64,000 bases of DNA from Caenorhabditis remanei (Eukaryota > Nematoda > Chromadorea > Rhabditida > Rhabditidae): assembly GCF_010183535.1 (NCBI RefSeq), contig NC_071331.1:8556001-8620000 (forward strand), read 5' to 3'. Below, piece after piece: positions 28,438-50,884 of the stretch. A model generated the notes under the pieces. The model made no database searches. It was given only the letters and a program-made list of their open reading frames with translations, and was not told where the DNA came from. The translations under genes and the position numbers were made by a program. The stretch's first letter is position 1; every line of letters starts with the position of its first letter.

Positions 28438-29168
28438 TGTGGCCACCCCTTCTGTCTCCAGAAGGCCGCCGGTAATGTGCCGAGTAGGGTGGGAACATGA
28501 GCCCAAATTATACTTCCGATAGGTGGTTCAGTGGGTTTAAAGGAAGTGCCCGATGTGCTGACAATTCAAGTATTTACAAGAACCATTTATTATAGGGAAA
28601 AAGCATGTCCCGCGAGGGACTGCATTAAAAACCTATTCGGTTCTGCCTTTTACAATACAAATAGAATTTAAAGGGAAAAGGGCTATCGAGGGAACTTAAT
28701 AGCGACTCTGCAAGCGCCCGATACACGTATCGGGAGCTCTCGAGGGGCTACAAGAAGCTCTCTAACAACTTCTCTTACAAAACACAATAATAACTCTCTT
28801 AGAGAGAGAGGAAAAACAACACTAAGGAACAACTAAATTATTAATGGCTTTAGGCCAAGCGAGGGGAGTCGGTCGAGTACGGTCACAGTCGTTTAGCAGG
28901 TGTGCGCGTGGCGAGACCAGCGGACGTCGGAAACAGCGTGCGCCTTTGACTGGAGAGACGCAGACACGACTAAATGGCGGCAACTTGAATTGTGGAATAT
29001 TACTTCCGCCTGAAATGGGGTTAAAGAGACAGGGAAGAAGGGAGTTAATTAACAGAAAGTAAAATACGTAATAAGTATAAACTAAATTAGAATAATTTAG
29101 TGATACGAATTACATTTTAGTTTGGAGTGGGACAGGAACCTGATTCGGGGACCAGGAGACTGTCAACA
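28438..29168 (-). repeat. 3' LTR of the giant element
   Basis: Reads TGTTGACAG...GGCCACA on the minus strand. Contains an AATAAA (28586-28591, complement) and an 8 bp-stem hairpin CCCGATAC/GTATCGGG near 28718-28735. The pol frame runs 52 bp into it and stops at 29117. The sequence just upstream (CAGACCCCCCGGAG on the sense strand) is not a normal polypurine tract. Confidence 0.93.
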
Positions 29169-32100
29169 CTCCGGGGGGTCTGAGGCCCGGCTGCTTGCGT
29201 TATGTGAACATAACGTGCAAGCTTAGCTTTCGCTTTGCGAGGTTGGTATTGTCGGACACGGTGGATTGGTAAGCGAGTTTTCGCATGATCAACGCTGTCA
29301 GGGCGAGAAGACATCATTGGATAACTGACCCCTGGACTGTGATTAGCAGTGTCTTGGGGTACTATGTCACCATGAGAGATCGCGGAACCTGATGGCTTCG
29401 TCAAGTCATCCATTATCTCGGTATTACGCTGTCGAGGGGCATTAGAATCAGAATCTAACTGTGCAGACTCGTTAACAGATGCGTGGCGATTAGCATCCAA
29501 GTTAGGGACTACCCGGATGAATCCGTTTCCAGATGTGCCTGAACGACTAACATCTGAATCCGGAGCACGAGGAGATTTCCCAGCTTTGGATGCGCCTGAA
29601 CGACTAGCTTCCAAATTCGGGACTTTCCGTTGAGCGCCATCTCCAGATGTGCCTGAACGACAAGCATCTGAATCCGGGGCGGACGGTAGTATCCTTCTAA
29701 TGGATGTGCCAGATCGACCAACATCCATGATTGATCCTGAGTCCGGAGACTGCAGTCTTCTCCTTTTTCTGGGTGCGCCTGAGCGACAAGCAACCAAGTC
29801 GGTGGCTGGCCGAGGGGTATCCGGTCGAGGTGTACCATCGAAGGCTAAAGAATTAGCTGTTCGAGGGGAACCACTATCGAATATTTTCTCGGGACCAGAT
29901 GACTTTAGTCCATATCTTATATTGGATGCGCCTGATCGACTAGCTTCCAAATTCGGGACTTCCCGTATAGCGCCATCTCCAGATGTGTCTGAACGACAAG
30001 CATCTGAATCCGGGGCGAACGGAATCTTCATCCCTCCGATGGATGTGCCAGAACGACCAGCATCCAAGTCCGTGGCTGATTCTACTGGCCGAGGGGTATC
30101 CGGTCGAGGTGTACCATCGAAGGCTAAAGAATTAGCTGTTCGAGGGGAACCACTGTCGAATCTTTTCCCGGGACCAGATGACTTTAGTCCATTCCTTGTA
30201 TTGGATGCGCCTGATCGACCAGCTTCCAAATTCGGGACTTCCCGTATAGCGCCATCTCCAGATGTGTCTGAACGACAAGCATCTGAATCCGGGGCGAACG
30301 GAATCTTCATCCCTCCGATGGATGTGCCAGAACGACCAACATCCAAGTCCGTGGCTGATTCTACTGGCCGAGGGGTATCCGGTCGAGGTGTACCATCGAA
30401 GGCTAAAGAATTAGCTGTTCGAGGGGAACCACTATCGAATATTTTCCCGGGACCAGATGACTTCAGTCCATTCCTTGTGTTGGATGCGCCTGATCGACTA
30501 GCTTCCAAATTCGGGACTTCCCGTTTAGCGCCATCTCCAGATGTGTCTGAACGACAAGCATCTGAATCCGGGGCGAACGGAATCTTCATCCCTCCGATGG
30601 ATGTGCCAGAACGACCAACATCCAAGTCCGTGGCTGATTCTACTGGCCGAGGGGTATCCGGTCGAGGTGTACCATCGAAGGCTAAAGAATTAGCTGTTCG
30701 ATGGGGACCACTATCGAATATTTTCCCGGGACCAGATGACTTTAGTCCATTCCTTGTATTGGATGCGCCTGATCGACTAGCTTCCAAATTCGGGACTTCC
30801 CGCTTAGCGCCATCTCCAGATGTGTCTGAACGACAAGCATCTGAATCCGGGGCGAACGGAATCTTCATCCCTCCGATGGATGTGCCAGAACGACCAATAT
30901 CCAAGTCCGGAACTTTCGAATCTGCTCTAACCAAACTTTCGCTGAAGCTTTGTACTTTGACTTTCGCTAATCTCTTTCCTTCAACGCTGGTCTTCAACGT
31001 ATTAGGTTTTGTCGATTTCTCGACAGTGTCTACCGATTTCGCAGTAGACACGACTGATTTCTCAGCAAGGTTTCTGTGATCTACAGAATTCCAGTGATAC
31101 CCGAGTAAATTGACCGACGGATCAGCTGTGATCTCCTCCCGAGGGAATTTTGACATCTCTTCCGCACTGTTTGAGATATATTCTCGAGGACGCTTGTTCA
31201 TCGAGGTGAACGCGTTACTCGAGTCAATCCGAATATTCTGTGTTTGAGCCCTATCATTCGAGGTAATCATTATATTGTCGACGTAGATGTTTTTCCGGAT
31301 TCGCTCGGCGATCGGATCGGTCATCCCATTTGGGAAGTGATCAATCGTGGCGGCGAGGAGGAACGGAGAACAGGTCATTCCGAAAGGAATCCGAGTAAAT
31401 CGGTACTCAATAAGATTATCTCGAACTGGGGGCTTCGCGTTATCTTTCAAGATAACACGAGTACAGTTACGCTCTTCGGGGTCCAGACGTACCTGGTGGA
31501 AGGCTTTTTCTATGTCAGCCTTCACCAGGGAATCCGGTAGCCGAGGGCGAATGAGAGTGTCATAAAGATCAACCAGCATCGAGGGTCCAGGTTCGAGGCA
31601 GTCATTAAGACTGAGCTCTCTCCCTTTTTTACTACTAGCATCGAACACGATCCGCAACTTTGTCATGAGCGAAGATTCCTTCACTACGACTCGATGGGGG
31701 ATGTAATAGACCGGATCTGTAGTATTGTCCATCTCCGGGGTTACCATCTCAATAATACCGCTAACTAGCTTCACAAATATTTCATAAGGAAGCAACAGTC
31801 TCCGGGACGTTCCTAATAATCGAGGCAACAAATCGATGCCCAAGAGCATACCGATGACTTGTCCGTTGAACGAACTATCCGTCAGTAATCTTCGAGGGGC
31901 AATTTGATTGTCACGAGAATAGCGAATATCTGCAGCGCTCAAACGAGGGCATACAAACTTCGTTTTCGGAAGTCGAGGGGAACTCGCGAATGTCATTGAG
32001 AATGGCGTACCATCCGTATGAAAAGACAATTGATAAAGAACTGGGAACGTAGCGATGCGAGGGGGATCCGAAGGGTCTTGAGAATCATGAGTACCCTGAA

Positions 32101-32347
32101 CCAGCTCAAGAGCGGGGTCGTCATCCGAGGATGACAATTCGAGGGGGGTCAGTTGATTCTCGGAACGCTCATAGATCTTGCCCGTGCATCTGATAGTCGC
32201 TGAGCGGATTTCTCCGGTGCTACTACGTTTAAACGTTCCAATTAGTACTAGAGGCACTGTTGCTGGCGAGGCAACAGTCGGTACGCTAACCGAGGAAGGC
32301 CCAAGGTTTATCCCTGGAAATTTACTGCGAGCCCCCGAGGGGGCCAC
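29117..32347 (-). CDS. pol: BEL pol: RT domain plus RSG-repeat tail, no RNase H/integrase
   Basis: About 1,076 codons overlapping gag by 26 nt in the +1 frame. Residues ~1-170 would hold the protease, but I see no clear DSG-type active site. Residues ~200-400 are BEL reverse transcriptase: RIVFDASSKKG, KADIEKAFHQV (catalytic Asp), RIPFGMTCSPF and IYVDNIMIT (YVDN in place of YVDD; the second Asp of the motif is Asn). The post-RT segment NLLGYHWN is still BEL. RNase H and integrase should follow; instead there are ~600 residues rich in Ser, Asp, Gly and Pro with ~17 RSG/RSD motifs in 93-residue repeats. The stop lies inside the 3' LTR. Confidence 0.85.
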   Translation of the reverse strand: MAPSGARSKFPGINLGPSSVSVPTVASPATVPLVLIGTFKRSSTGEIRSATIRCTGKIYERSENQLTPLELSSSDDDPALELVQGTHDSQDPSDPPRIATFPVLYQLSFHTDGTPFSMTFASSPRLPKTKFVCPRLSAADIRYSRDNQIAPRRLLTDSSFNGQVIGMLLGIDLLPRLLGTSRRLLLPYEIFVKLVSGIIEMVTPEMDNTTDPVYYIPHRVVVKESSLMTKLRIVFDASSKKGRELSLNDCLEPGPSMLVDLYDTLIRPRLPDSLVKADIEKAFHQVRLDPEERNCTRVILKDNAKPPVRDNLIEYRFTRIPFGMTCSPFLLAATIDHFPNGMTDPIAERIRKNIYVDNIMITSNDRAQTQNIRIDSSNAFTSMNKRPREYISNSAEEMSKFPREEITADPSVNLLGYHWNSVDHRNLAEKSVVSTAKSVDTVEKSTKPNTLKTSVEGKRLAKVKVQSFSESLVRADSKVPDLDIGRSGTSIGGMKIPFAPDSDACRSDTSGDGAKREVPNLEASRSGASNTRNGLKSSGPGKIFDSGPHRTANSLAFDGTPRPDTPRPVESATDLDVGRSGTSIGGMKIPFAPDSDACRSDTSGDGAKREVPNLEASRSGASNTRNGLKSSGPGKIFDSGSPRTANSLAFDGTPRPDTPRPVESATDLDVGRSGTSIGGMKIPFAPDSDACRSDTSGDGAIREVPNLEAGRSGASNTRNGLKSSGPGKRFDSGSPRTANSLAFDGTPRPDTPRPVESATDLDAGRSGTSIGGMKIPFAPDSDACRSDTSGDGAIREVPNLEASRSGASNIRYGLKSSGPEKIFDSGSPRTANSLAFDGTPRPDTPRPATDLVACRSGAPRKRRRLQSPDSGSIMDVGRSGTSIRRILPSAPDSDACRSGTSGDGAQRKVPNLEASRSGASKAGKSPRAPDSDVSRSGTSGNGFIRVVPNLDANRHASVNESAQLDSDSNAPRQRNTEIMDDLTKPSGSAISHGDIVPQDTANHSPGVSYPMMSSRPDSVDHAKTRLPIHRVRQYQPRKAKAKLARYVHITQAAGPQTPRSVDSLLVPESGSCPTPN
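29974..30905 (-). repeat. 279 bp (93-codon) tandem repeat in pol
   Basis: Unit boundaries, taken at CATCTCCAGATGTG, fall at 29974, 30253, 30532 and 30811: exactly 279 bp each, so the frame is kept. Each unit encodes GRSGTS, CRSDTS and SRSGAS-type motifs. Shorter related segments extend to ~29560. Units are nearly identical, suggesting recent expansion or homogenisation. Confidence 0.92.
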
Positions 32348-34895
32348 GAAAAAATTCAGACAGGATTGGAGCCGGGGCGTCGGATGGATAGTTTCGAGGG
32401 TCGCGGTAGTACTCTTTCAAAGTGCAAGCTCCCGAGTTGTGCTTGCCTTGACAGTAAGCGCAGGTACTGAAGCTCTTGCATTCTTCGGTGGGGTGGGTTC
32501 TCTGTGCACAATTGTGACAAGATCCACTGGAACGGAAGAATTGCCGAACTTCGTACGAAGGGAGGGCACACTGTAAAATGGAGTGTCCGGGACCGCAGAT
32601 GAAACAGCATTTCGAGGCAACTTCGGAGTCTCGAGGGAAAGTATGAGCGATAAAACGCTCATCATATCCTCTACCGTACTTATAGCACGGTTCGAGTTTC
32701 TCTCCGGGCTGCCCTTTCATGCCGGGAATCCGAGGCTTGAGGGTTCCTGAGTTTGGGTTAGACGTGGGGCCTCCTCCTTGGCGATTTCCGGGTGACGCGA
32801 TTCCTTGCGGATTCGGAAACGAGGGTCTACCAAATGGTGCGGAACCTTGGCTCGGGGGAGCCTGATTTCCCTGGTGTTGGGCGGTTGCTTGGGAACCGAA
32901 GTACCCGAGGCCGGCCTGACCAGAGGAGCCTTGATTGCCGGATTTATTCGGCTGGTTCGAATTCTTCGAGGGGTTCTGTCCTTTGCCGCCTTTGCCCGAA
33001 GTAGGAGACGCGTTATTGCTAACGTTCGCCGGTTTCGGGGAGGAAGCGAATTTGGGGGCGGTACGAGTACTGCCGCCAGGAGTAGAGTTACCTCGAGGAT
33101 TCTTAGATGTACTTGAAATCGCGTTTGTAGCCATTACTGACTCGCCCGGGATCTCTTTCAATCTCTCAGAGACTTTGGCAGTTCGAAAACGGTCGACGAA
33201 GGCACGGTCGTTAAGATAACTTGCGTACCGGTCGAAGATCTGATTTGTCGAGGGCTGCCCGCCATTGTCGAACAACGGCTTGATGACACGGATCATCTTT
33301 TCCGGCAACTTTTCCATAAGATTGCGAACAAACGCGGGGGAGTCAACATCTTCCCCTAGATCTCTGAGCCGTAGGACGAGAGTTTTCGCGTCCTGTAATT
33401 GGCGGGAGGAGCGTTTGAGGTCGGTCTCGTGGAATGTCAGCTCCCGGAAACGCGTTAGGGCTTCCGTGACGCCAGAAGTATCGCCCTCGAAGGTGTTGCG
33501 AAGACCTTCCAAGGAAGCTTCGATGGCCCTGCGAGGATCACTTAAGTCGACATAAAAGCGCTTTGCGTCTCCGACCAGCTTCTTTTCCAGGATAGCGAGT
33601 CGCATTTCATCGGAAAGTCGCGGATTTTGCATTCCAAGTTTTTCGAACATCGAAATGAACTTTTTGTATCGGAGGGCATCACCAGAAAATTTCGGAAGAA
33701 TAGACTCGAGGTCGTAATAAGACAACCCTTTGTTACTCGATTTCATTTTTCTGCCTCTCTGAGCCTCACGGCATTCGTCGTTAGCTTCCTCATCTGAGGA
33801 AACTTCGGTTCGAATTTGAGGGGCGGGCGAGCGAGCCGAAACATCTTGTTCTTTCCCTTCGCTGTCAGACAGATTGGGGAAATTCGATTGAACCTGACGA
33901 GGAGTAGAGGCTACTATCGGGGTAGCCGAGGTCACAAAACGTCCACCGCTTTCTGGCCGCATTGCGCTAGCGAAATTTGGTGATGACCGGGGTTCCCGTA
34001 GTGGACACTGGTGTGTCTTATGTCTCGACGACGTGCAGAGAACGCATAAATCGTTCTTAGCGCAAAAGACCGGTAGCTTCGGACTAGTGCAGTCGAGAAG
34101 ATCATGACTTCCTCTACAGAGCGGACAGGCCGATCTTTGAGGAGCCGAACTAGAGGCTTTGTGGGTTTCGGTATTTGAACGAATATCCGAAGTGACCACT
34201 GGAGGAACTTGCGTTCCACCGGAGTTGGTGATACCATCGAACGAGGTGTGTTGAACACGATTGCTGTCCTCATTCTTGGCATCGAGAGGATCGATGACTT
34301 CTTGAGAAGTATCTGATAACGAGGGATCATTCAAATCGTCCTCGTCGGATACAATCTCATCCTCCTGGGGTGAAGTTTCCACTAACTCCGAGATATCCGC
34401 GGCTTCCGTAGAGGATACCTCTTCGTCATAGCGGTACTTCTGCTTTTCGAGCGTTTCCTGCAATGCCAATATGGTCGTCCTGAGAACCGGCAAGGTGTTG
34501 GTCCGAGGCTTCAGATTAAGATGAGCCTTTGCCGCTTCGCGTAGACGGTGACGTTCCTTGTTGGACAGGACTTCCTGGACTTTGGAGACGAAATCGTGGA
34601 AGTGATTATCAGTCTCGATCATTGCTTTGATGACGATCAACTTCTTTCGTAAATCGTTGATAGTCTTGAGCTCGATAGCGTCATGGACGACCGAAGTGTC
34701 GTCAATGAAGGGTTGTGCTTCTGCCACAGCTTTGACGCCGGCAGAACTTGCACGAGTGATCGCGGTCTTGACTTTCTTCTGAGCCTTCTTGAAGTTCTCC
34801 GAGGGTTGACGTTGAATCACGTTGTTGTTTGCGGCGGTTCCTCCAGATGTTGACGAGGGGTCGATCCGCGAGTGTTGTTGTCCGGTACCAGACAT
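32322..34895 (-). CDS. gag: BEL gag polyprotein
   Basis: 857 codons. The order is an N-terminal basic/coiled region; a first zinc cluster at ~residues 255-300 (CPLCRGSHDLLDC, then CVLCTSSRHKTHQC); a capsid-like region at ~395-500 (LPKFSGDALRYKKFISMF); a Gly/Ser/Asn/Pro-rich linker; and three C-terminal zinc knuckles (CFICGPGHSILQC, CHNCAQRTHPTEEC, CAYCQGKHNSGAC) that should bind the genomic RNA. Gag would form the particle. It ends at a TAA 26 nt into pol; the overlap contains GAA TTT TTT CGT, a plausible +1 slip region. Confidence 0.88.
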   Translation of the reverse strand: MSGTGQQHSRIDPSSTSGGTAANNNVIQRQPSENFKKAQKKVKTAITRASSAGVKAVAEAQPFIDDTSVVHDAIELKTINDLRKKLIVIKAMIETDNHFHDFVSKVQEVLSNKERHRLREAAKAHLNLKPRTNTLPVLRTTILALQETLEKQKYRYDEEVSSTEAADISELVETSPQEDEIVSDEDDLNDPSLSDTSQEVIDPLDAKNEDSNRVQHTSFDGITNSGGTQVPPVVTSDIRSNTETHKASSSAPQRSACPLCRGSHDLLDCTSPKLPVFCAKNDLCVLCTSSRHKTHQCPLREPRSSPNFASAMRPESGGRFVTSATPIVASTPRQVQSNFPNLSDSEGKEQDVSARSPAPQIRTEVSSDEEANDECREAQRGRKMKSSNKGLSYYDLESILPKFSGDALRYKKFISMFEKLGMQNPRLSDEMRLAILEKKLVGDAKRFYVDLSDPRRAIEASLEGLRNTFEGDTSGVTEALTRFRELTFHETDLKRSSRQLQDAKTLVLRLRDLGEDVDSPAFVRNLMEKLPEKMIRVIKPLFDNGGQPSTNQIFDRYASYLNDRAFVDRFRTAKVSERLKEIPGESVMATNAISSTSKNPRGNSTPGGSTRTAPKFASSPKPANVSNNASPTSGKGGKGQNPSKNSNQPNKSGNQGSSGQAGLGYFGSQATAQHQGNQAPPSQGSAPFGRPSFPNPQGIASPGNRQGGGPTSNPNSGTLKPRIPGMKGQPGEKLEPCYKYGRGYDERFIAHTFPRDSEVASKCCFICGPGHSILQCALPSYEVRQFFRSSGSCHNCAQRTHPTEECKSFSTCAYCQGKHNSGACTLKEYYRDPRNYPSDAPAPILSEFFRGPLGGSQ

Positions 34896-36337: not shown

Positions 36338-36527
36338 TTTTCCGATTTTAACACGCTAAAAAGTAGTACGATCTCGCCCCAGACGGCTCGAACGATCGTA
36401 TCGAGTCTACTTTTTACTCATCGCATAGAGTTGATTTCATCACATTTTACCCCCGTTCATGAATCTCGAATTCAAGAAGGGCTTTTTCTCAATACGTGCA
36501 GACTTGTAATAGACGAGGTAACTGTTT

Positions 36528-36563
36528 TAATCGGACTGTCTCGGTTTCGAGACAGTCCGATTA
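36528..36563. repeat. Perfect 16 bp stem, 4 nt loop hairpin
   Basis: TAATCGGACTGTCTCG at 36528-36543 is followed by a GTTT loop and its exact reverse complement at 36548-36563. It lies in the non-coding gap between gag and the accessory genes. Confidence 0.95.
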
Positions 36564-38894
36564 ATCTGTACTTAGTACATCTGCACCAAATATCGTCGGT
36601 TGACGAGGAATTCGATGGAAATCAGAAGTACCGAATGATGCTCAAAATAAGTATATCCGAGGACATATTAGAAATTTTTTACTCCTAGATCGTGGTGATG
36701 GGATTCCGGAAGACCGTTCAATCTTGCTGGAATTCATGACCACTTCTGAGGAGTACCCATTAGAGACGGAGAGTTCGACACGGGTAGCTCGAGAGCAATT
36801 TGCCTCAAACGATCGGTCTAAAGATGGGTTGCGAGGAGCGTGGCTTACAGATACTAGCACCGATAAACAAGTTGTCCAACCAAAATAAGACGGGGGGTTT
36901 TTAAGAGCGAAGGGTAAAGATGTGAAAACACGAACTGAACACTGGGGCTCGAAACCGCCCATCTCATTTTAGCCACGTCGTAACGTGGACAAGTTTATTA
37001 GCACACGTAAGAGGTCACGTTCATAATGAACGTGGAATACGAGGGGTACACGTACTAATAATTTACGTATAACCTCGTTGTGCCATATAGGTCTCAAAGT
37101 ATCTAGCTTTCTGTGACGTCTCAGTCGGCGAATGCATCTTCGAGGGGATATGACCACGCATGGACGGTAAATTCAGCTGAATTTTCATCGATGCATGAAG
37201 TTAAAAGGAAGGATCCTTTTAGGTAGAGACGGTTCCTTGCTTTTCGTGATACGCTGCAGCTCAATCAAGCAGCATTAGAAAGAACTGAGGTTTCATCTGT
37301 ATATGACTACGAAATGATATCACTTGTCAAGGAGGTGACGAGCACCTTTGCCATCGTCATGGCTCAAAAAACGAGCACCTTGGAACAATCGAGATATTCC
37401 GCTGGCGGACATTTTCTAAGTCAATCAGACCGCCGCTCATGAACGATTAACTCCATTGCCCTAATGGGGGGAAGAAAATACATTGATGAACGAATTTTGA
37501 GATGAAATCTCGGTACAAGAGGCACTTTCAGTTCAGTCGCTTGACGTTCCTGAAGTCGTCCAAAGACGTATAGAAGTAAACGAGGTGTAGTTGTCGAAGA
37601 AGCACGTCCCGAGGGCACTGACATCGTTCGACGGTACACTTGTGAGCCAGTAAGTATGCGAGGTGACTGATCCACGTAATGACAGAGCTTCAAATTCCGC
37701 TCTTGCGAAACCTGTGCCAATACGCTCCAGTTTTACCAAAGAACTTGATTCAACCGAATTTTTGCGGGCGGCGCTAAATTGAAACTATCGCGAATTTCTG
37801 TTGGTATAGTCCCGGAGGATGTTTACCGAGGAAATTCTTAGACCGAGTTGTCGGCTTGATAACAGATCGCCCGGCGCTGAAGACCAAACGACTCTCGAGT
37901 CCCGAGGGAACGATTATCGATTGAGCTGAGGCGGTGGGGGGAGTGGAATCGTATCCGAGGAACTCACATGGTCTAGATACTGCAATACGTGCGGCCGGCG
38001 TAGGATATTTTCACTCGCAGAACAAACTTAGATCTTAGACAGTCGTGTATAGTAATAGCGTTTCTGACGCACCAAATACGCTAGGCTATACCAAGTCAAC
38101 ATGCACCAGATGCCTTCATATTCAGCTGATATGAATAGAATTCCAATGTTTTAGCTTGATTGCTAAATCGCGATTCGAACTATCTGTGAAGATTCTGAAC
38201 ACAAATTATCATCTATATCCTCATTCCTTTTCTAGCTTTCGCATCATAGATCCGGAAATTAGGTATTTATCCCGAGGGATTGGACCGGTTTTTAAGATCA
38301 CAGTGATCACCGACCCGGATAACCCTGAATCTAGGCTTAAACGAGGAGCCACCTAGTATCATCGCTTCGATTACAGGTTTGGGGGTTTACCAATTGAATT
38401 AATTTTCAATCGGAAGGGAAGATTGTACCCGATTATGAGTCAAAAACACCGAAGTGCACCAAGATAGGTCCGACATCATATGCCCGAGGGCGCTGGAACT
38501 AGTCCAAATCGGAATACGGCGTTAGCTGCCTGCTAATTATCAACCCAAATTGCACTAAATCGGTGTCCAGAGAACCTGGAGCACTAGATTCTGTGACTGA
38601 CATACGAGGTTTATCATTTTACCCGGACTCGAGGTCATAGGGACGGATGAATCTCCTGTTAGCCTCAGAACGATCAGAAGAGCGTACTGAGTATGAGGTT
38701 TTACTTCTATTCATAACTATAGAAGGAGGGGGGTCCAGCGAATTGGCTGGCACCTCCCTGATACGTGGCATTCAGTTCGTGTTTGGACATCAGGAGGCGG
38801 GAAAAATAAAAGAGCGCTGAAACAGAAATAATAATGAGTTCGGACTCATATCAAAACCGAGAATGAAATCGCTCGAGATCAACAACAACTGGGA

Positions 38895-38972: not shown

Positions 38973-40963
38973 TTATTCGGCAGCTTCTGGCTCCTTCTTT
39001 ATCGAGGATTCCGACTTTGCCGCTGGGGCGAGTCTCGGTCTCTTCGCATCGTCGCGCTTTCCACTGCTTCTGTGCTTGGCTCCGCGACGTTGCCAATTGT
39101 ATCCACCATATTTCTTCGAGGTTTCGCCACCGGATCTCTTACTAGACGAGGGGGCTAGTGCTCGTTGACTTGACGAGGGCTTTTTCTCTTCGTCGGAACC
39201 GGAGTCCGAGAAGAAACCATTCTCTTTAAAGTCGACGTACTTTCTCTGCACGTGATATCGACCTTCTTGGCGAGGCCGAGAATGGTCAATGTATTTGCCC
39301 ATGTTGCCGCCGTAGTACGAGGAATCGTCCTTAGGATCAGATTCTGAGCGATTTCCCGCTTTCGAGGTCTCTCCGGCCGAGGAAGACGGATGCTTCTGAT
39401 GGCGGGAAGGACACAAAAGAGGGTGATGCTCTCGTTCTTTGGAGGGCATGGACGGATCACATCTGAGGCAGAGACGGTGTTTCGCTTTGCAGAGTTCTGG
39501 CGAGCCATCGCAGTCGTTTTTTCCACAAATGAGACATCTTTGCTGAGTAATCAGCGCCAGACGTTTCGAATGCAGATCGAGGTGCACGTCACAATAGGCT
39601 GCGTCGTGTGTTCCGGTGCAGTAAAAGCATTTCGTGGAACTCTGAACATTACTGAATTAAGAAATGATCTAAGAAAATCACACTACGTACGGTCTTTCGG
39701 GCCTCTTGAAGCTTTCGCTCCTCAATTTCAGCAACCTTTCGATTGTGAGCACGGTCCGAGGAATTACCGATCGCTTCGATCTCATCGAGGGCTATCAGGA
39801 CTGAATCATCGTGGTCTGCGCCTGGTTCGAGGATTTGCTTGAAGCTATCCTGATCCTTCTTGATTCCAGCCATCTGGATTTTCAGATCTCTAACCTCCGT
39901 GGCCGTTTCCATCGATGACACTTTCCGTGCAATATAGCTTCTCAACGAGTCGTAGACTCTGGTGATTTTCAACGAGGTACTTTCGAACTTTTTCCAATCG
40001 AGGGAGCCTTGCTTCAAAAGTGTCTCTACTTTCTCATTGCCTTTGCCTTGACTTCTGGATAGACGGCGTTGATCGATCGCGATCCGAGTCAACTGCTCCA
40101 GGAAGATACCCATATTTTTGGAGATACCCTGGAGAGTTGCGATCGGGGCCAATCTCTCAATCATATCGGTCCATTGATCGAGGGAAGGAATACGATCAAT
40201 AAGATCTGCTTTCTTCGCGAGGGCCTCGAGATCGGTCTTGGTTGCCAGCACTTCGAGATCTTTCTTGGTCACGTATTTGTCGAGGTCATCATGGGTGACT
40301 GAAGCTGTCGAGATGGTTTCGAGCTGATCCGAGATCTTTTTCAGCATCGCAAAAATCGTGGGAATCGTCTCCGATTCTTGGGTAGTATCGAGGAGTTGAG
40401 CTACGGTCTCTGGCGTCTTTCCGTCGGTCTCATCGCCGGATGTGGGCGCTGGACGTACGTCCTGGTCCTTATCTGGTGAATCCTGCGAGGGATCGACTTC
40501 GTCAGCGTTCGAGTTGACATCAACGTAAAACGCTGGCGGACCGAATAGAACCTGCTCGTTTGGCGGGAGGTCGTCCTCATTTGAGTACGATTTTCCGGCC
40601 TCATCGAGGATATGGTTGTCCTCTCCTGAACTTTCCCCTGAAAAAGAGATGATTTAGCCGCAATCCAGCGTACTGAATGGCACTAACCATAATCGAGAAG
40701 CTCTTTCTCTTCATTTGATCCGGGCTCCACGCTAGCCGATCCGAGTCCGAAGACTGGTGGGGCGGGCGAGGATTCTGAAACAAGAAGGCTAGTCACTCTC
40801 CACTCATTATCGATCTGTTTTTACCTTTGCCGACCTCAAGGAGCTCGACGATGCGTTGCTCACTTATCGGGGGGCATGGGATCAAGGCGATCGGCGGAAG
40901 CTTATTGCGAGGGACTTGATTGTTCACTCGCTCCTGGTCGTCAGTAGTGTTAGCTGCACTCAT
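38973..40963 (-). CDS. Accessory gene A: spliced 613-residue gag-like zinc protein
   Basis: Exons 40825-40963, 40688-40774, 39691-40637 and 38973-39641; introns of 49-50 nt and phases 1, 1, 0 that close without a stop. The N-terminus is MSAANTTDD; residues ~90-170 are acidic; ~180-390 form a predicted helical region with repeated heptad-like KADL/KTDL segments. Residues ~391-460 are Cys/His rich: CFYCTGTHDAAYC has the C-x2-C-x3-H-x4-C spacing of the first gag cluster, followed by CLICGKNDC and CLRCDPSM. The tail is basic and Ser-rich with KRPR and KKEPE. By zinc spacing and placement it looks like a second, diverged gag-type protein; RNA binding is inferred only. A poly(A) signal follows at 38895. 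Confidence 0.8.
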
Positions 40964-41094: not shown

Positions 41095-41130
41095 ACGAGG
41101 TAAAAAATGAATAATCAGTCTTTCTGCAAA

Positions 41131-41925
41131 TTATGACGGCTTCCATTTGAGTGAAAACATCCTTTCGAGGGTTCCCGATTGGAGCTTGTGATGTACCAAG
41201 AGCATCGCTTTTTGGGCGATTTGACGGATTTGACAGAAGTCTGACAGTCCGAACGCTTCATGTTGTGACAGTAACGAGGGTAGGCATCCGCAGTTCATAT
41301 CGTTTTCACGAATCAAACTCAACGAGGACAATCGTGAAGTGGAGTACCGAGGGCGAGGAGCATTTACATCAACATAATCCAAAATGGCTACGTGATAGGC
41401 TACCCACTGGTCCAATGGTGACATATCCCGAGGGATACGTGTTCCAAGAGCTTCCGGAGTCTTCTGGAGGAAAAATCCGCCGTTCAACTCGAAAGCCCGG
41501 ACACTGTGCTCTCGACAACTCTCAACTTCGACGAGGATCCAAGTTGACCACACACGATTGCGTGATGCGAAGGCGTATGCTCGAACCATCACTTCCATTG
41601 GCATTCGATCTATCCGAATCTGAAAACTAGAGGCATCATTAGATTAAACTGTCTGCTTTTTCTGGCTAACCATCGTTTTTTCGAGGTGTTTATACTCATT
41701 TCTGCTAGAATTCACGACTTCAGATGCCCGAGGGCGATTGACGTCGAAACTCGGAGCAACAACGAAACTAACTGACTTCTGATCCGATTTCTCAGAGCGA
41801 AAAGTCCCCTCGATGGAGCGAGAGCCTGGAAAAAGTCGATTTAACCGCCCGATTCGATCTATTTGGATACTTTTGCAAGTTTCCTCCTTTCTCAAACACG
41901 AGGGATGTCCACCGAATTGATCCAT
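41131..41925 (-). CDS. Accessory gene E: spliced 247-residue protein, CxC-H-CQ family
   Basis: Exons 41671-41925 and 41131-41619, phase 0 with a GTTAGC donor and TTTTCAG acceptor. The start is the ATG at 41925; the frame is open ~10 codons further up to a possible acceptor. Exon 2 has a strand-like pair (VRAYAFASRNRVWSTWILVE), then NGGFFLQ, SPLDQWVAYHVAIL, and a cluster C-x-C-x7-H-x8-C-Q (from CGCLPSLL to DFCQ). Gene D (42631-43242) shares these in order, so the two are paralogues. No known domain recognised. The cluster might bind zinc. Confidence 0.65.
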
Positions 41926-42630: not shown

Positions 42631-43242
42631 CTAGAGATTCCAGGTTGAAAATGCTCTTCTCAGAGACGATAATCCAGACAGGGTCTCAGCGCGGGTGGGT
42701 TCCGAGGGCCAATAATTTTGGGTACGACTAGTCGAGGGCAGCTCAAAGAGATGAGCCTCGATATTAATATCCTCCATCATTTTTCCTTCACGAAGACCAT
42801 CGGCGATTGCCGCTGCGAACGCGAGGGCTTGACACTCCGGTGGATCAGAATGATCGTAGAGAGGAGTATCGTACCACGGGTTGCATTGGCAACGCGGACG
42901 ATCCACGGGAACCGAGTTTCGCAGCCAAGTCGCGAATTCGACTTTTACGAAGAATCCTCCGTCCTAAAATACAAAACGAGGCTGAGTCGAATAGTGCTTT
43001 CTCACATGTGAATGTGGGCCTTCGGGGCATCCAGGAGGTGGTCGAGGTGGGTGGATATGATAAAGAACGAACTTATCATCTACCCATTGATACCACTTAA
43101 TCGCGTCCTCCGAAAAGGACTCGAAATTGAGCGGGTCGTAGTCGACTCGTACCGACAGATACGTAGTACCGTGGGCATTGATCGAGTGAAGACTGAATCC
43201 GATCGCTGGGAAATCGAAGGGAGCACTGTCCGACAGAGGCAT
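42631..43242 (-). CDS. Accessory gene D: spliced 189-residue paralogue of E
   Basis: Exons 43006-43242 and 42631-42963, intron 42 nt, phase 0 (GTGAGA donor, TTTTAG acceptor). The ATG follows a TTACCTACAG acceptor by one base. Shared with E: a strand pair (IGFSLHSINAHGTTYLSVRV), WYQWVDDKFVLYHI followed by PPRPPP, a GGFFVK segment, and C-x-C-x10-H-x5-C-Q (CQCNPWYD ... ECQALAF). Order and spacing differ slightly from E, as expected for old duplicates. Function unknown. Confidence 0.65.
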
Positions 43243-43793: not shown

Positions 43794-43898
43794 CTAAAAT
43801 GGGCCTAACATGTTCATCGATTATCACAAATATAGCTGGTTAAAACCAGATATTACCCCAACGTGGAAGACGAAAGTGAACTGGTTCAAAGAACAAGT

Positions 43899-43904
43899 TT
43901 TATT
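43899..43904 (-). terminator. Poly(A) signal after accessory gene F
   Basis: AATAAA on the minus strand within TTCTTAATAAAAC, ~190 nt past the stop at 44096. Confidence 0.45.
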
Positions 43905-44095
43905 AAGAAAAATTTAATAGACACGTTAAGGAGAGTGAGATTGGACGAGGTATTAGGCTGATCAAGACGTCGTTGAACGCGTGAAGATGTGAAAATGTCC
44001 AGTGAGGTGGAAAAAATGCTGTCACGAGGGTGGCGAGGAAAATTGAGAGATCTTGGCAGTGAGGTTGTAACAGGATTGGAGTCTATGGAGTGGAT

Positions 44096-44804
44096 TCAGT
44101 AGGCGTTGCAAGCAGAAGGGGCAACTGCGCCAGACTGAGCTGGGGCGAATTGGAAACCCGTGCCGGCTTCGTCATCTGAATCGTCTTCTTCGTCGTTAGA
44201 GTCGGATGGGGGAGTATCCGGATCGGAGTCCTGACCGTCCGAATCTTCCGAGGAATCAGACGACTCCGAGGAGTCTCCGTAAGTAATAGACTGGAAAATC
44301 TTGAAACGTTTTCGGATGCCTCGAGCGCTCAATTCTCCGTTGGCCACGTCGCCACGGATTCGATCCATGATCTTCGAGATCTTCTGAAACATTCGGTGAC
44401 GCTGGGATATTTAGGTGTGACTGGGTACCGCATAATTAGAGTAGCGTTTTCGCGCAATGCGAGGGTCCTTCTCTTTTTTGGCGGTTCCAAGATTAGAATC
44501 TTTGAGGCGTCTGGCTACGAGGTCGCTAATCTCTGCTCCGAGGTCGGCCTTGAACTTCCCATTCAATAACTTGAACAGAGAGTCCTGAATACGAGAGCTG
44601 GCTTGAAGCTGCATCTCAAAGTGTCTCAGGACACCATAACCAGTCTCAGACCGGAAATCAGCATATCGTAGTCGGCACGGCTCATTGTCACACCTAAAAC
44701 ACCATCATCTGTAATTTCTAGCTCGAATTCTGGTTAATCTCACGCTGTGGAGGTTCCGAGGGCTGATTGAAGCCTTGCGGCGGGTCAGATCCGTTAGCCG
44801 ACAT
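44096..44804 (-). pseudogene. Accessory gene F: acidic Ser/Asp-rich protein, frame disturbed
   Basis: Exon 1 (44744-44804) encodes MSANGSDPPQGFNQPSEPP. Exon 2 (~44690 to 44429) encodes a helical, basic segment (RIQDSLFKLLNGKFKADLG ... RIARKRYSNYA). Exon 3 (44096-44383), joined in phase 0, encodes a run of Ser and Asp/Glu (SSESSDSSEDSDGQD) like an acidic phospho-tail. Exon 1 to 2 does not join cleanly: the splice that fits phase reads MSRADYDMLISGLR and then stops, while the downstream frame opens at YGVLRHFEMQLQ. Either a 1 nt frameshift or an intron I missed. Confidence 0.5.
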
Positions 44805-47800
44805 CGTCGATCTCGAGGGTCGCTGAAACATAAATGATTCAACTATGCTCGGATGGAACAATGACGAGAAACTGTCACGGAGTTACACGGGCAAGATAAG
44901 ATAGAATTCGAAAAGGGAAACTACTTGCGTATACAACAGGGCACAAAGGTTCGAGATGACGAGAGATAGTCCACGACATCAGTTGAAGGAGTCACCTTCT
45001 CAGACATCACTGGCTAGAGCTCTACGCGAGAAGTTTCGCCGCAACACGATACTAAACCATCTCAAAGCTAAGCGAGAGCTTTCTATGTAGCGATCGAAAC
45101 CACTACTCTGAAAGCAAGAGGCTTTGGAATCATAACGGATTCCGTGATGTAATTAGTTTGACAATATAGTGTATTCGTAAGCTGATTACGGTCTCTCTTA
45201 AACGACTATCATTCTCATCGGTTCTTTGTAAGTCTCGAGGATCTACTAATTTCAGTGTAGTTCGTGATAGAGACGAGGTATTGGTAGCCTAATAAGGCCC
45301 TCCGCTTGCCAGGCGGCCGGCCCGTTAATCTACCGATCCGCTTAAAATCGCTCCAAAACGGCTAAACCGAAAGCTTCAACCTCAAGTCCTACTTAGAACA
45401 AAACGAAGACTCGAATGACAGAGAGGGTCCGTAATCAAAAACGACTACCTACGGCCACTAAGAGAATCGAGGGAGAAGGAGGAGTCATACAACGCCGGCT
45501 TATCGCTGTCATCTGCCTATACCGCAAACTAAAGCACCACATAGTTTATTCTCTTTCTCTCATCCAGATGTGGTTATCGAGTGGATTTCCAGATTGGTAA
45601 TACTGTCGACAACGGTTGTTAGACAACCTTCAGATTTCGAGGAAGTGTTCACAGTCAGTAATGTACCAAAAAGGTACAAAAGCCACGCGACCTGATGCGA
45701 AAACTGCCGAAAATCCGGTCTAGAGTATACCAAATCCCTTGCGGGATAGCGAGATTCTAAAAAGAATCTGAGCTACAAGAATTCCTATGCAATTCGAGGG
45801 AAACGCGCTCACACTCGCCCACTGGGGGAGAATGTAAGTCTATTTCGGTCGAATTACTCTCGATAATGAACATCTTTCACAAGATACTCAGAGTTCCGTG
45901 TTATGTATGATTGAATATCTAGGATTCAGAATCGAGACTCTGATTCCATACTTCATACACATCTTCCAATAGGCGGATCTGATAGCACCATATCTGGTCC
46001 CGAGGGTCTCATAATCAATGGCGCCCTGGAGCAGTGGGTCCTGGAACCCATGCTCCGGGGGGCCAGAGGATTCGAGTATATCTCCGATCCGAAGGGTCTC
46101 ACTCGAAATCGAGGGATATGCTTCGGCGGAGGCTACACCGAATCGCTGACTACGATAACCTTTGAACGTGATCTAGTACTAGAAACTCTCCCCAGAGCGT
46201 AATCCACGCTCCGGGGGGCCAGAGGATGCTCCATAGGGAGTATCCTCCTCAAATACTGTAACCGGAAGAGCATACGAAAGACACTCTCTCGCACTAACAC
46301 GGCCGACTATCCTATAGCTCATTGGGGACGACCACCGAATAACCAACCTTGCGGCCGGTTACGAGGGCGAGCGGGCCAACCAGCCAGAATAGCCGGGTTG
46401 ACTGTTTCAGTTCACGTTAACACGCTACTGAATATGTCGGTCGCCAAAGAGCATATACACTCTTCAACTAAGTCTTCTGGCAGTTAGGTCAGATTTCGTA
46501 TCGATGTGTACAGAGTCGGTCGAATTTCAAATTGCATGTATCCGAGGGGAGTAGACCCATACGGGGTTCCGGTCTCGATACGAAATTCAACGTGTCTCGG
46601 TGAGACCGAACGATCTGGAACCCATTCAATGCATAGCTCTCCGAATCAATTTGAACGGATGACTCGCTAGCACCAAATGCTCCGCAGGAGGGAATGGTCG
46701 TCTGAGGATCGGCAGTTCAGATGCTTGAAAAGCGTCTGTCGAACCAACGAGCTTAGGCGTAGTTCCTTTCCATTGGAGGTTCTAACACAGAAGACAAGTG
46801 CGAAATTACTCAAATTTTTCTGCGAAGTAGCGTCTTCTTGGGATAGAAAGTGGATATTAGTGAGTCGATATTATCTAATAGGCCGCTAGTTATCATATCA
46901 GGTAAACAGAGGGTACCGACTGCTCGATCGCTTCGGATCTACTCACAATGCAACGCTTGCGTTGATGTTTTCGAAAGTAGGCATCAGCCTTAACCCTTCA
47001 GAATCCTGCTACTAAACCAGTGGGTGTTCGAACAATCGATGAACTAAATCGACTTTCTACCTAGAAGTCTGAAAGCGAGGGAGCGAATCGGATGAATAAT
47101 TAGAAGAATTGACTAGGTGTATTATCGAGGTGAGGGGGATTCGAAAGACTCGAAATACATCGAGGGAGATCAAATCGCCGAGGCTCGCATTAACACCATT
47201 GGTCGAACTTCCAGAATTGCGAGGGTCGTGAGGTCGAGGAAATATCGCCATTTCCTGTCAAGCTCTAAACCGGAGCAATAAAAGACTATCCGAAGGCTCG
47301 CTTGCTATCTACTGACGGCTTACGAAATTCTGAGTCCCGATGATGGGCCAGATACAGTACGTATTCCGCTAACTGTTCTCAAACGACTACCAAATCAAAC
47401 GATAAGGCAAGAACAGACTCACGGAACGTCTAATGAAATCTCATTGGAGCGTGTTAACTCGAGGGGCCGGTTACGAAAATGGCATACGCACTGATCCGTG
47501 GCGTACCTTACTCGAGGTTTCTGTATTCATATGTCCGACCGGAGACCCTTGCCGGCAAGACGACCACGGTTAGTGGATGGGCGCCGCTAGGGGGAAACGG
47601 GTGGGACACAGAGCTTACAGTCCCTAACTAACGCAGAAAATGGAGCACCTGAGGCGGGACAGGGACTGCCCTCCGAAGGGAGGAGTCTGATCGTCTCTTG
47701 CCTGGCATCTCTTTCGCTAGTCAATAACACGAGCCGATAAGCTCAAAACCGTATCTGGTGAACCAGTCGGGCTTCACACGAGGGGGCCAGCCTGCTCGGT

Positions 47801-48445
47801 ACTTAATTCAACACGTTCGGCGGGTCGGAATTAACCCGATGAAGCCTAGGGAGCTGAACAAAACCAAACCGACCCAAGATCCCATGTACGCATCAACATT
47901 CCGAGGGATCCTTGTCCCACGAGAGGGGTCGTACGCAGTAAAAACTGCCGACCGCTCGGGTAGGGAATCGGTTATCGGGACTGCTCGCGCTCCGAGGAGC
48001 TGGAGACAAATGCCGATAAACCATCAAAAGGAGCATCCGAAACATCAAAATCATACACGAGGTCGAGGACCCCCAGTTTTTCATATCATCCTTCAGTCTA
48101 AAAACTCGGCATCCCAACCGCTTTGCTACCTTGCGGCTGCTTAGCGGGGGTTCCGGGTTCTCAGACATTCAGACAACGTCTTAGATCCGAGGAATCGATT
48201 GTAGGGTATCGATCCGAATGCTGTAATTGACCGCCGATCCCCTTCGGAAGTACAGAATTCATAAGAATTCCGTAAATATCCGGCGAGGGGAGAGGGCGAT
48301 ATCAAAAACTATCCGGAAAGACATGACTACAATAGACACTCAAATCCGCAAAGAGGCTCCCTCCGATCCAGCAAGCTGGCATGAAGGGACCTTGACTTAT
48401 TCAACGATCGTCTTTAATGCGATCAGTCGGCTGCCGGTACCACAC

Positions 48446-48983
48446 CCTCCCGCAAACAGACGAATCTGTGTTAAAACACAGCAAGAAGCGGCAGTACCTT
48501 TCACCAACTTAGCACAAAAAATAAAACCGAAAAACTATAGCCAAGTGGCTTCGTCCCGAGGGAGAAGCACCCAAACGAGAACAATCCCGCTCGACATCCA
48601 GCACGAAACGACATCGGGCATCACACGAGACTTCTGATCGATTTTTCCCAGTTTCCGAATGGTTCGGGGCGAGCGAAACGCCTCGAATTGCTTCGAGGGG
48701 TGTCGGAATCGCGAAAACCGTTCGTAGTCCCGAGAAAACCGAGGGAAGTTGACCAGCAAACGACATCCGAAGCCACAGGGCACGAGGGAGCCATCCAAAC
48801 CAATCGCGAACTTCTGATCGATTTTTTCTCAGTTTCCGATGGGTTCGGGACATACGAAACGCCTCTAGTTCATTACTCGAACGTCTCCGATGTGATCTGT
48901 TAGCTAGAAGCACTACACCCTTCCGCAAACGGACAAGTCCGTGTTAAAACACAGCAAGAAGGGGGCAGCACCGTTCACTAACG
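48446..48983. repeat. ~462 bp imperfect tandem repeat in leader
   Basis: The block beginning CCGCAAACAGACGAATCTGTG (48450) recurs at ~48912 as CCGCAAACGGACAAGTCCGTG; both continue into TTAAAACACAGCAAGAAG. A CTTCTGATCGATTTTT segment is also repeated (48630 and 48810). Confidence 0.75.
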
Positions 48984-49121
48984 TAGCACGAGGGATGAGA
49001 ACAAGAAACGAAACCTCAAAGCGTGTCGAAATCGCGAAATCCAATCGTAATCCCGAGAAAAAAGCGAGGGAAGTGGACCAAAACAGCAGCAAACGAAGCG
49101 ACGAAGCACGATGCAGTCAGA

Positions 49122-49440
49122 GTACCCAATCCGTAGAACTTCTGATCGAATTCTTGCCCGCTTCCGGTTTTTTCGGAATTTTCGAAAAATTTCGAAATCC
49201 GAAAAAATGGGGAATTGGGGAGAAAAACGAGGGAAGCGGGAGAGGGCGAAGACAACTGACGCAAATGAGCACGAGGCAATCAGAGTACCCGATCCGTAGA
49301 ACTTCTGATCGATTTCTTGCCCGCTTCCGGGTTTTTCGGAATTTTCGAAATATTTCGCAATATTTCGAAATTCGAAAAACGGGGGAATTGGGGAGAAAAA
49401 CGAGGGAAGCGGGACCGGGCAATAACGACTGACGCCCGCG
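49122..49440. repeat. 163 bp tandem pair near the 5' LTR
   Basis: Units start at 49122 and 49285 with GTACCC(A/G)ATCCGTAGAAC and share GCCCGCTTCCGG, a TTTCGAAATA-type AT/CG patch and GGGGAATTGGGGAGAAAAAC. They lie ~0.7-1 kb inside the 5' LTR. Confidence 0.85.
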
Positions 49441-50142
49441 AAGCTCGAGCCATCCATTTGAGTCGATGCGAGGGCGGTCCGATCGATTTCCAACCAATTT
49501 TCAGAAAATCCGTTGAAAAATCCTCGAGGAGAGCGAATCCGAGGTTGATGTGCGTAGAAATCGAGTGGAATTGGGAATTTTCGCCGGGAAAATGTGCGGA
49601 ATGCCGAAAAACATAGAATTTTCCGAGAAAAATTCGATTTTTCAGACAAACAGCGAATTTCGAGGAGAAAAATCCGAATTTCTCGAGTGTCCGAGTGTTT
49701 TCGGGCCTTTTCCGTCGATTTTCTAGCTGGTTTTCGCGAAAAATCGCGAGAACGCCGCCGAAAAGCGAGGGAATGATGCAAAAATCGCGCTGAAATTCGC
49801 GCAAAAGTGGGAAGGCCTAAAGCCGCTTTGCGGCGCAGCGCTTCGCACTAGAGCGCAGTTGCTACCCAAATTTAAAGGTGGGGCCTTAAATGGCGCCAAA
49901 TTCAAAAAAGGGAAGCGGAATTTCGCGAGAAAAAAGCAACAAAAAGACCGAAATTGCGAAATGCAAAGAAGTTTTCGCCGTTCTAATGTATTTTCAAGGA
50001 AAAACACGAGAATCGCAGCACATAAAAAATCGAAAAATCGATTTTTTCGGACAAAATATGGGCAAACCGACTGATTCGTCCGTGTCGAGGGGAAAAATCG
50101 ATAACTCGAAATTTTCCGGTCTAGCGGAGAAAACCTGGTCAA

Positions 50143-50151
50143 GATGCACCA
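50143..50151 (-). other. Primer binding site, tRNA-Gly type
   Basis: Two bases inside the 5' LTR, the minus strand reads TGGTGCATC. This is complementary to a 3' end GATGCACCA, as in tRNA-Gly(GCC), over nine bases. Position and sequence are what a BEL element needs to prime minus-strand synthesis. Confidence 0.75.
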
Positions 50152-50153
50152 AA

Positions 50154-50884
50154 TGTGGCCACCCCTTCTGTCTCCAGAAGGCCGCCGGTAATGTGCCGAG
50201 TAGGGTGGGAACATGAGCCCAAATTATACTTCCGATAGGTGGTTCAGTGGGTTTAAAGGAAGTGCCCGATGTGCTGACAATTCAAGTATTTACAAGAACC
50301 ATTTATTATAGGGAAAAAGCATGTCCCGCGAGGGACTGCATTAAAAACCTATTCGGTTCTGCCTTTTACAATACAAATAGAATTTAAAGGGAAAAGGGCT
50401 ATCGAGGGAACTTAATAGCGACTCTGCAAGCGCCCGATACACGTATCGGGAGCTCTCGAGGGGCTACAAGAAGCTCTCTAACAACTTCTCTTACAAAACA
50501 CAATAATAACTCTCTTAGAGAGAGAGGAAAAACAACACTAAGGAACAACTAAATTATTAATGGCTTTAGGCCAAGCGAGGGGAGTCGGTCGAGTACGGTC
50601 ACAGTCGTTTAGCAGGTGTGCGCGTGGCGAGACCAGCGGACGTCGGAAACAGCGTGCGCCTTTGACTGGAGAGACGCAGACACGACTAAATGGCGGCAAC
50701 TTGAATTGTGGAATATTACTTCCGCCTGAAATGGGGTTAAAGAGACAGGGAAGAAGGGAGTTAATTAACAGAAAGTAAAATACGTAATAAGTATAAACTA
50801 AATTAGAATAATTTAGTGATACGAATTACATTTTAGTTTGGAGTGGGACAGGAACCTGATTCGGGGACCAGGAGACTGTCAACA
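50154..50884 (-). repeat. 5' LTR of the giant element
   Basis: Same length and, where compared, the same sequence as 28438-29168. The promoter should lie in its 50884-proximal part on the minus strand. It is followed outward by the GTTCC target duplicate and host sequence (TTGAAAAAATACAATTT) that has a paralogous counterpart at ~52972. Confidence 0.93.

Follow-up and report, generated by a model that had tools for sequence, protein, structure and literature searches.

The window analysed is a stretch of 64,000 nucleotides (nt) from Caenorhabditis remanei (C4:8556001-8620000), in which 28438-50884 is one long terminal repeat (LTR) element on the minus strand, reading right to left. The element is considered here, with somewhat better than even confidence, to represent a giant, recently active BEL/Pao family whose RNA would be marked by a dispersed word, CCTCG (CCUCG in RNA). 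This word may be an RNA self-tag, read by an element-encoded protein for the export and packaging of unspliced RNA. Upstream of gag the window copy carries four predicted accessory genes (g1-g4; a fifth, g6, occurs in relatives), and the family includes 12-kb members that share LTRs, leader and 3′ end with the giant copies. In a tree of nine pols, comprising four clades A-D (one pol each read for C and D) and five other BEL families, A, B and D form one clade with C as its sister (pol 76-77% identical), and the branch after that is an ordinary BEL family at C4:18.1M. Of the BEL families behind 139 Peptidase_A17 matches, pol was read from these nine.

Within the 20,985-base interior the sense strand contains CCTCG 172 times, against 32 expected under a first-order Markov model, and its reverse complement 11 times against 24 expected. 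Outside the element, the first 18,000 bases of the window hold one CCTCG and the last 13,116 bases four (reverse complement none and four). Spacing within the interior is roughly random (median 86, mean 122). Enrichment in the sense direction is found in all 17 pieces of seven fetched copies and at all four clade-B loci, in coding and noncoding sequence; two of these loci are listed on the opposite strand, where the counts of 45 vs 1 fall under the reverse complement. The word is also abundant in the g6 block (22 vs 4.4 expected) and in the diverged middle of a 12-kb copy, L028 (32 vs 6.1). A segment present only in the copy at C5:14.1M (L023 322-1523) shows no enrichment (1 vs 0.5), as expected of a later insertion.

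When pol is compared with shuffles that preserve both protein and codon usage, no pentamer scores higher than CCTCG in clades A, B and D (z-scores of 12.9, 10.4 and 10.1). The same holds, by codon shuffles, for two frames of a 12-kb copy, gag (z 5.5) and protease (z 4.1). No clear excess of CCTCG is seen in four other BEL families used as controls (3 vs 4.7, 2 vs 2.0, 5 vs 1.7 and 4 vs 3.0). A whole-genome search with a three-CCTCG cluster pattern gave 194 forward and 301 reverse matches, with many simple repeats among the matches listed, and was uninformative.

The word also appears to be retained by selection. Across four copies of the accessory block the CCTCG positions differ at 1.2-2.1%, whereas the ten positions on each side differ at 1.9-6.4%, with 17 of these 20 at 3.8% or more. 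Between the window reference and three sister copies 36 substitutions fall in CCTCG bases, against 85 expected. This deficit has the lowest probability of all 1024 pentamers (1.6e-9; the next is 1.6e-5), a value that serves as a ranking and not as a true p value. Noncoding regions taken alone give 11 substitutions vs 32.4 expected, and the noncoding leader of a 12-kb copy 3 vs 10.4. Over longer divergence, 29 of 35 CCTCG sites in pol are kept between clades A and B, compared with 128 of 284 sites of similar pentamers (Fisher p 2e-5), and between A and D the figures are 29 of 45 and 137 of 350 (Fisher p 0.002).

The sister clade has a different word. Clade C keeps 6 of 44 of the CCTCG sites of A, vs 65 of 331 for similar pentamers, and its pol piece still holds CCTCG 11 times vs 6.4 expected. 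The hexamer ACCGCG occurs 12 times in the clade C pol frame vs 1.5 expected (z 9.2); the 2.2 kb around the clade-C g2 contain eight forward and no reverse copies vs 0.3 expected (z 12.2).

A sense-strand excess of another word, CCCAC, was observed in the BEL family at C4:18.1M (L052, C4:18095500-18100500; L058, C4:18093500-18095499), which has no g2 match. The counts are 25 vs 8 in pol, with no reverse complement, and 9 vs 2.5 in gag, nearly all of them coding. This excess is only a lead; other families may carry words of their own.

The features of the element are as follows. The copies compared for g1-g4 are those of the window, C5:11.92M, C5:14.1M and C6:1.45M, and ratios of nonsynonymous to synonymous divergence (dN/dS) are pairwise.

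28433 to 28437, no strand: left target duplication, GTTCC, 5 bp
28438 to 29168, minus strand: 3′ LTR, 731 bp, 0 mismatches to the 5′ LTR
29117 to 32416, minus strand: defective pol frame, a partial reverse transcriptase (RT) followed by tandem 93-amino-acid repeats
29169 to 50153, minus strand: interior with dispersed CCTCG, 172 sense-strand sites and 11 of the reverse complement
32322 to 34895, minus strand: gag, with five knuckle-type motifs
36763 to 36845, minus strand: g6 site, where the sister copy C6:11.21M carries g6; gene absent in the window copy
38973 to 40963, minus strand: g1, predicted 4 exons and 613 amino acids, in frame in 3 of 4 copies, dN/dS 0.25-0.31
41131 to 41925, minus strand: g2, predicted 2 exons and 247 amino acids, open in 3 of 4 copies, dN/dS 0.15-0.60
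42631 to 43242, minus strand: g3, predicted 2 exons and 189 amino acids, open in 4 of 4 copies, dN/dS 0.06-0.25, 97% to GCK72_019879
44096 to 44804, minus strand: g4, predicted 4 exons and 185 amino acids with an acidic C-terminus, open in 4 of 4 copies, dN/dS 0.24-0.32
45411 to 50133, minus strand: long 5′ leader, common to the 12-kb partners, without recognised genes (Pfam scans excluded the leader)
50134 to 50151, minus strand: primer binding site, the initial 9 nt fitting the 3′ end of tRNA-Gly(GCC)
50154 to 50884, minus strand: 5′ LTR, 731 bp, 0 mismatches to the 3′ LTR
50885 to 50889, no strand: right target duplication, GTTCC, 5 bp

The primer site begins with TGGTGCATC (50151-50143), 9 nt that match the end of tRNA-Gly(GCC) plus CCA. 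The genome contains 19 tRNA genes matching the primer site, which are presumably tRNA-Gly. At the clade-B LTR L041 (start C5:16345436-16346260) the match to the tRNA-Gly(GCC) end covers 18 of 18 nt and at its neighbour L040 only 9 nt, as though the provirus had acquired a copy of the tRNA end. Before the 3′ LTR the sense strand ends in GACCCCCCGGAG (29169-29188 in the window), which is also present at the six clade-A and clade-B 3′ junctions examined. This is no polypurine run of the roughly 10 nt included in the BEL/Pao description, so second-strand priming may be unusual. The leader aligns by blastn with L029, L030, L032 and L035 in pieces of 75-94% identity, and a candidate splice-donor context at about 47650 is present in 7 of 7 sister pieces. 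The elements are richer in GC than the surrounding DNA, and an Rfam search of 28000-51500 gave no match.

A search of the 130.5-Mb assembly with the LTR returned at least 42 matches, fragments included. Thirteen LTR pairs were examined, that of the window among them, and 12 have a 5-bp duplication: GTTCC (window), ATTTA, AGATC and AAACA around 22-26 kb copies, GACAT, GCAGC, ATAGG and TAACC around 12-kb copies, and CAGCG, CCTCC, ACAAC and TCCTA at further pairs. The pair without a duplication call (C4:21.67M) has a left LTR boundary that was cut short. Mismatches between LTRs number 0 or 1 in the 12 pairs, with 10 gap positions in addition in the TCCTA pair (C6:1.4M). Neighbouring LTRs at C5:16.3M and C4:23.6M were also compared in other pairings, which are left out of the count. 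LTR-bounded units of about 12-28 kb have thus been inserted at many sites with their introns in place, and the family is mobile in the C. remanei genome and recently active.

A previous examination of the letters of the window alone (the sequence-only reading) had described matched LTRs, a 5 bp duplication and a tRNA-Gly-type primer site, and had concluded that the whole moved as one unit. The boundaries proved exact (731 bp, 0 mismatches, GTTCC, 9-nt match), and the different duplications of other copies found by the genome LTR search agree with movement as a unit. Occurrence of the accessory region as ordinary host DNA without LTRs, which it had named as a refutation, was not seen: clade-A and clade-B matches lie between LTRs or beside one (at the split C6:1.45M copy). 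The two clade-C and four clade-D g2 loci have a BEL pol 11-19 kb downstream; LTRs were not looked for there, and shorter matches on small contigs were not followed.

Some loci are rearranged, either in the genome or in the assembly. At C6:1417199-1448747 the LTRs of one insertion face outward with the matching TCCTA duplications between them, which means that the assembly has split the C6:1.45M copy. A third LTR lies inside the CCTCC pair at C5:16.29-16.35M. At the end of L040 (C5:16.32M) the LTR flank matches, in reverse complement, the flank of a C3 copy (start of L037, C3:16.124M), which could be a duplication, a rearrangement or an assembly fault. Since the right flank of the enclosed LTR matches that of the C3 copy, this locus has undergone rearrangement or duplication, and some of its clade-B copies may not be independent of one another. 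The window itself contains two 100% identical inverted duplications (7274-9089, 16227-18042, 18040-20456 and 27661-30077) that meet at 18040-18042. One of them includes the left end of the element and 777 bp of its flank. Either the DNA was rearranged recently, after the insertion, or the assembly is at fault here. Beyond the element, at 55004-57550, lies an 848-amino-acid stop-to-stop frame on the minus strand with internal repeats, which is partly repeated near 63.4 kb.

By its Pol the element is assigned to BEL/Pao (Belpaoviridae). The evidence comes from the 26-kb sister at C5:14.09M, in which one frame of 1955 amino acids matches RVT_1, Peptidase_A17 and DUF5641 well above the Pfam cut-offs, one aspartyl-protease model just above its cut-off, and Integrase_H2C2 (the integrase zinc domain) below it. 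The order of protease, RT, RNase H region (Peptidase_A17) and integrase is found in this sister and not in the window copy. The BEL type named in the sequence-only reading stands on the domains of the sister; the pol of the window copy is itself defective, with deleted and shuffled pieces, and a Pfam scan of its frame matched part of RT only, with no protease, Peptidase_A17 or integrase. In gag, the sister copy L025 gives a DUF1759 match just under the Pfam cut-off. Gag and pol overlap at 32322-32416, with pol in the +1 frame by coordinate arithmetic. The end, FFRGPLGGSQ, is identical in giant and 12-kb members and suggests a conserved recoding site. In-frame tandem repeats of 57 nt and 279 nt at the 3′ end of pol (29463-30942) vary in number between copies and are shared with the 12-kb members.

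Defective members have spread as well. The copies of the window, C5:11.92M and C6:11.21M have one shuffled and shortened pol with an identical order of pieces (3 of 3 compared with the 26-kb copy), and therefore the defective form spread, presumably helped by intact copies. Pol-defective members of 22-25 kb and apparently RT-less 12-kb members alike have near-identical LTR pairs and target duplications. The one 12-kb copy scanned, L028, contains a diverged gag (32% identity to the window gag) and a protease, with no RT match; no accessory genes were seen in the 12-kb partners. Among three pol-defective copies dN/dS of gag is 0.22-0.24. Synonymous divergence among pol-defective copies is 0.03 in pol and 0.07 in gag, and that of g1 is 0.11 (window to C5:11.92M). 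As the shuffled pol is less diverged than gag or g1, its flanks have probably recombined with other copies, and the purifying selection on g1-g4 and gag is for this reason not assignable to the time since pol was lost.

The accessory genes g1-g4 are, by these dN/dS values, under purifying selection. Their predicted introns number eight, all GT..AG and 42-56 nt long, and keep GT..AG in all four copies. Two frames are exceptions, g2 of C6:1.45M with one stop and g1 of C5:14.1M with one frameshift. The g1 product has a probable coiled coil (by eye), one CX2CX3HX4C zinc knuckle of a type that also occurs in Gag, further Cys pairs and a basic C-terminus. The fifth gene, g6, has two long exons, the first Cys-rich; it is found in C6:11.21M, at 67-70% identity at four clade-B loci, and as fragments in C5:14.1M. 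At the clade-B locus L036, g2, g1 and g6 occur in conserved order. The full order g4-g3-g2-g1-g6 upstream of gag is a composite from several copies, and all five genes together with an intact pol were not shown in one fetched copy. Parts of the accessory block align in relatives at 67-74%. Exon 2 of g2 was matched at 15 loci, of which by identity five belong to clade A, four to B, four to D (three with stops) and two to C.

Searches for more distant relatives of these proteins gave little. Protein searches, which for g1 and g6 scored the roughly 8000 candidates sharing most words, returned four matches to g1, one to g3 and one to g6, all of them C. remanei hypothetical proteins. A Pfam scan of the exon frames of g1, g2, g3 and g6 (g4 not included) found nothing above the cut-offs, and 150 pattern matches to g2 in viral contigs included no relative. 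Acceptor-like sites precede the ATGs of the four accessory genes in all four copies, AATAAA signals downstream of g4, g2 and g1 are likewise conserved in all four, and TTTTCAG at gag is present in 4 of 4 sequences examined. Between g1 and gag a perfect 17-bp hairpin with a 4-nt loop was noted by eye (36527-36564).

The gene models rebuilt here from GT..AG introns reproduce exactly the four gene spans of the sequence-only reading. Its proposal that retained introns make the unspliced RNA the genome is upheld by the presence of all eight introns in four copies, which shows that unspliced RNA was reverse-transcribed. Its view of the accessory genes as an undescribed system needs amendment: Cer1 and its protein CERV already provide an example of a Caenorhabditis retroelement that expresses an accessory gene by splicing. 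Both g6 and the CCTCG word had gone unnoticed.

From the strand asymmetry of the word and its presence in 12-kb members it follows that its action is in cis, most likely at the RNA level, and that it can be used in trans. We infer that CCTCG is a self-tag of the element RNA and that defective members are mobilised in trans. Because acceptor-like sites and AATAAA signals are conserved in four of four copies, full-length RNA would need protection. In the proposed mechanism spliced transcripts would yield the accessory proteins first, by analogy with the production of CERV by Cer1. An element-encoded RNA-binding protein would coat the tagged RNA along its length, and this coating may mask the splice acceptors and internal AATAAA signals that the RNA contains. 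The same reader would carry the unspliced genome through nuclear export and on to packaging in particles. Judged from predicted protein features, the first candidate is g1, with its probable coiled coil and Gag-like knuckle; g6 or the Gag knuckles are also candidates. A more specific version, to which roughly even chances are given, is that the word is a clade-specific RNA barcode read by a co-evolving element protein. With about 180 or more copies along the whole element RNA, such a barcode would sort element from host RNA, would let partners without these proteins travel in trans and would have switched from CCTCG to ACCGCG between sister clades.

A number of results weigh against the self-tag and its barcode form. 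Codon shuffles give five other BEL families z of about 4-7 for their own words (L053 6.2, L052 7.3), so the values of the 12-kb frames (4.1 and 5.5) and of the clade C pentamer (5.4) are unexceptional alone; the case of clade C rests on the hexamer ACCGCG, not on a pentamer. An ordinary BEL family, L055, has some excess of CCTCG itself (9 vs 2.0, none reversed; z 5.8, by codons 3.4). Accessory exons also hold the word, which consequently cannot by itself separate spliced from unspliced RNA, and the eight accessory introns together contain one site. The predicted unpaired probability at CCTCG is raised modestly (0.42 vs 0.33 ± 0.09), with 26 of 136 comparable pentamers higher. The pooled copies have a common ancestry, which makes the p values of the substitution analysis too small. 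Ranked on the noncoding ratio, CCTCG comes 124th among 695 pentamers, a list in which many rarer words show no changes. Among the single comparisons, significance was not reached by the coding one of C5:14.09M with the window reference (13 vs 16.7) or by the two 12-kb coding ones. When CCTCG sites found in either sequence were masked, none of 12 regions was significant (lowest p 0.07), a mask that inflates changes for any word. The structure models of g2 and g6 were too poor for searching, with predicted local distance difference test (pLDDT) values of 53 and 34.

The word might instead be read by a host factor, either as a licence against silencing by PIWI-interacting RNA (piRNA) or nuclear RNA interference (RNAi), or by recruitment of the host export machinery. 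Multi-copy export elements are known to act in intronless mRNAs. The roughly random spacing of the sites, the word in accessory exons and in 12-kb members where no accessory genes were seen, and the smaller excess in L055 are all consistent with a host reader. Such a reader should, however, serve related elements alike, yet clade C has ACCGCG, and four of the five other BEL families have no clear CCTCG excess; this explanation is considered rather unlikely. Another possibility is that CCTCG is a dispersed silencer of splicing or polyadenylation, which would turn off acceptors and internal poly(A) signals of the element itself and play no part in export or packaging. A full-length RNA would indeed have to read through three conserved AATAAA signals and past the acceptor-like sites kept ahead of the four accessory genes. 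The word, however, shows no visible concentration near those sites (500-base bins, by inspection) and has a similar density in the 12-kb members, so that a pure silencer appears improbable.

Two further explanations were rejected, and each is given only a very slight chance. One treats the accessory block as host cargo that was captured and is carried passively by a large LTR derivative; the broken pol of the window copy and the ability of LTR elements to carry host DNA, noted in the available part of PMC6431247, could be cited for it. The block is nevertheless kept across clades, the order g2-g1-g6 being preserved in clade B and g2 occurring in all four; its genes are under purifying selection, it carries CCTCG, and the protein matches of g1, g3 and g6 are all C. 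remanei hypothetical proteins (their location in elements was unchecked). Large retrotransposon derivatives (LARDs), in which LTRs surround long DNA that is largely noncoding and replaces the element genes, differ from this element, whose gag and accessory genes are open and under purifying selection. The other explanation regards CCTCG as a product of mutational or codon bias without function. The GC-richness of the elements and pentamer z of 5-7 in ordinary BEL families fit such a bias, whereas the excess beyond codon usage in the shuffles, the enrichment and substitution deficit that extend to noncoding sequence, the strand asymmetry and the confinement of the deficit to the five motif positions do not. 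The self-tag with an element-encoded reader is the reading preferred here.

Literature searches found no earlier report, and no paper linking CCUCG with an RNA-binding protein or CCTCG with Caenorhabditis. Belpaoviridae are described as elements of 4.2-10 kb with one to three genes, LTRs of 0.2-1.2 kb, a tRNA-Gly or tRNA-Arg primer site and a polypurine tract (PMC8742986). The present element is similar in its 731 bp LTRs, its gag and pol, its tRNA-Gly primer site and, in the 26-kb sister, the order of protease, RT, RNase H and integrase. Unlike that description (PMC8742986), the members here measure 22-28 kb (22.4 kb in the window copy, a size that the sequence-only reading had rightly placed beyond the usual BEL range), have up to five accessory genes and a 4.7-kb leader, carry a dispersed sense-strand word and lack a run of purines ahead of the 3′ LTR. 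The window copy, which has gag, pol and four accessory genes, lies outside the described range, by a descriptive and not a phylogenetic criterion. The described size and gene content of BEL/Pao are extended accordingly.

The closest parallel in expression is Cer1, a Ty3/Gypsy element of C. elegans. Its spliced mRNA is found with and without the spliced leader SL1, and its 8-kb RNA must skip splice sites (available part of PMC3315495); export requires CERV, a protein with a potential leucine zipper and a Cys-rich loop (available part of PMC10309623). Both are Caenorhabditis LTR elements with an accessory protein from spliced mRNA (predicted here) and an unspliced genome RNA. Cer1 differs in its Ty3/Gypsy pol, its RNA of about 8 kb and its single accessory protein, CERV, which shares exons with Gag, and no dispersed word is described in those parts of the two sources. 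As Pol here is BEL and the predicted g1 has its own ATG upstream of gag, the element may work like Cer1 but is not of the Cer1 type. It would form a second Caenorhabditis retroelement lineage predicted to have spliced accessory genes, set apart from Cer1 by its Pol. The giant Burro elements of planarians are also LTR elements of more than 20 kb with extra coding capacity; they are Gypsy-like and, in the available part of PMC6431247, hold the extra domains mainly in a polyprotein of 4873 amino acids, unlike the separate intron-bearing genes before gag of this BEL element.

How a retroelement selects its own long, intron-containing RNA among host nuclear RNA is an open question. The solutions discussed for Cer1, Rev-type and structured export sites, are localised (available part of PMC10309623). 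With a dispersed linear word that is not the same in sister clades, RNA self-recognition becomes directly testable; should its reader be confirmed, the word would in itself be something new. The word resembles the dispersed packaging signals of RNA viruses, which also place many short motif copies along the genome RNA; in the available part of PMC6281560 those are sequence-structure motifs bound by coat protein, whereas here the motif is a linear pentamer at about one per 120 nt.

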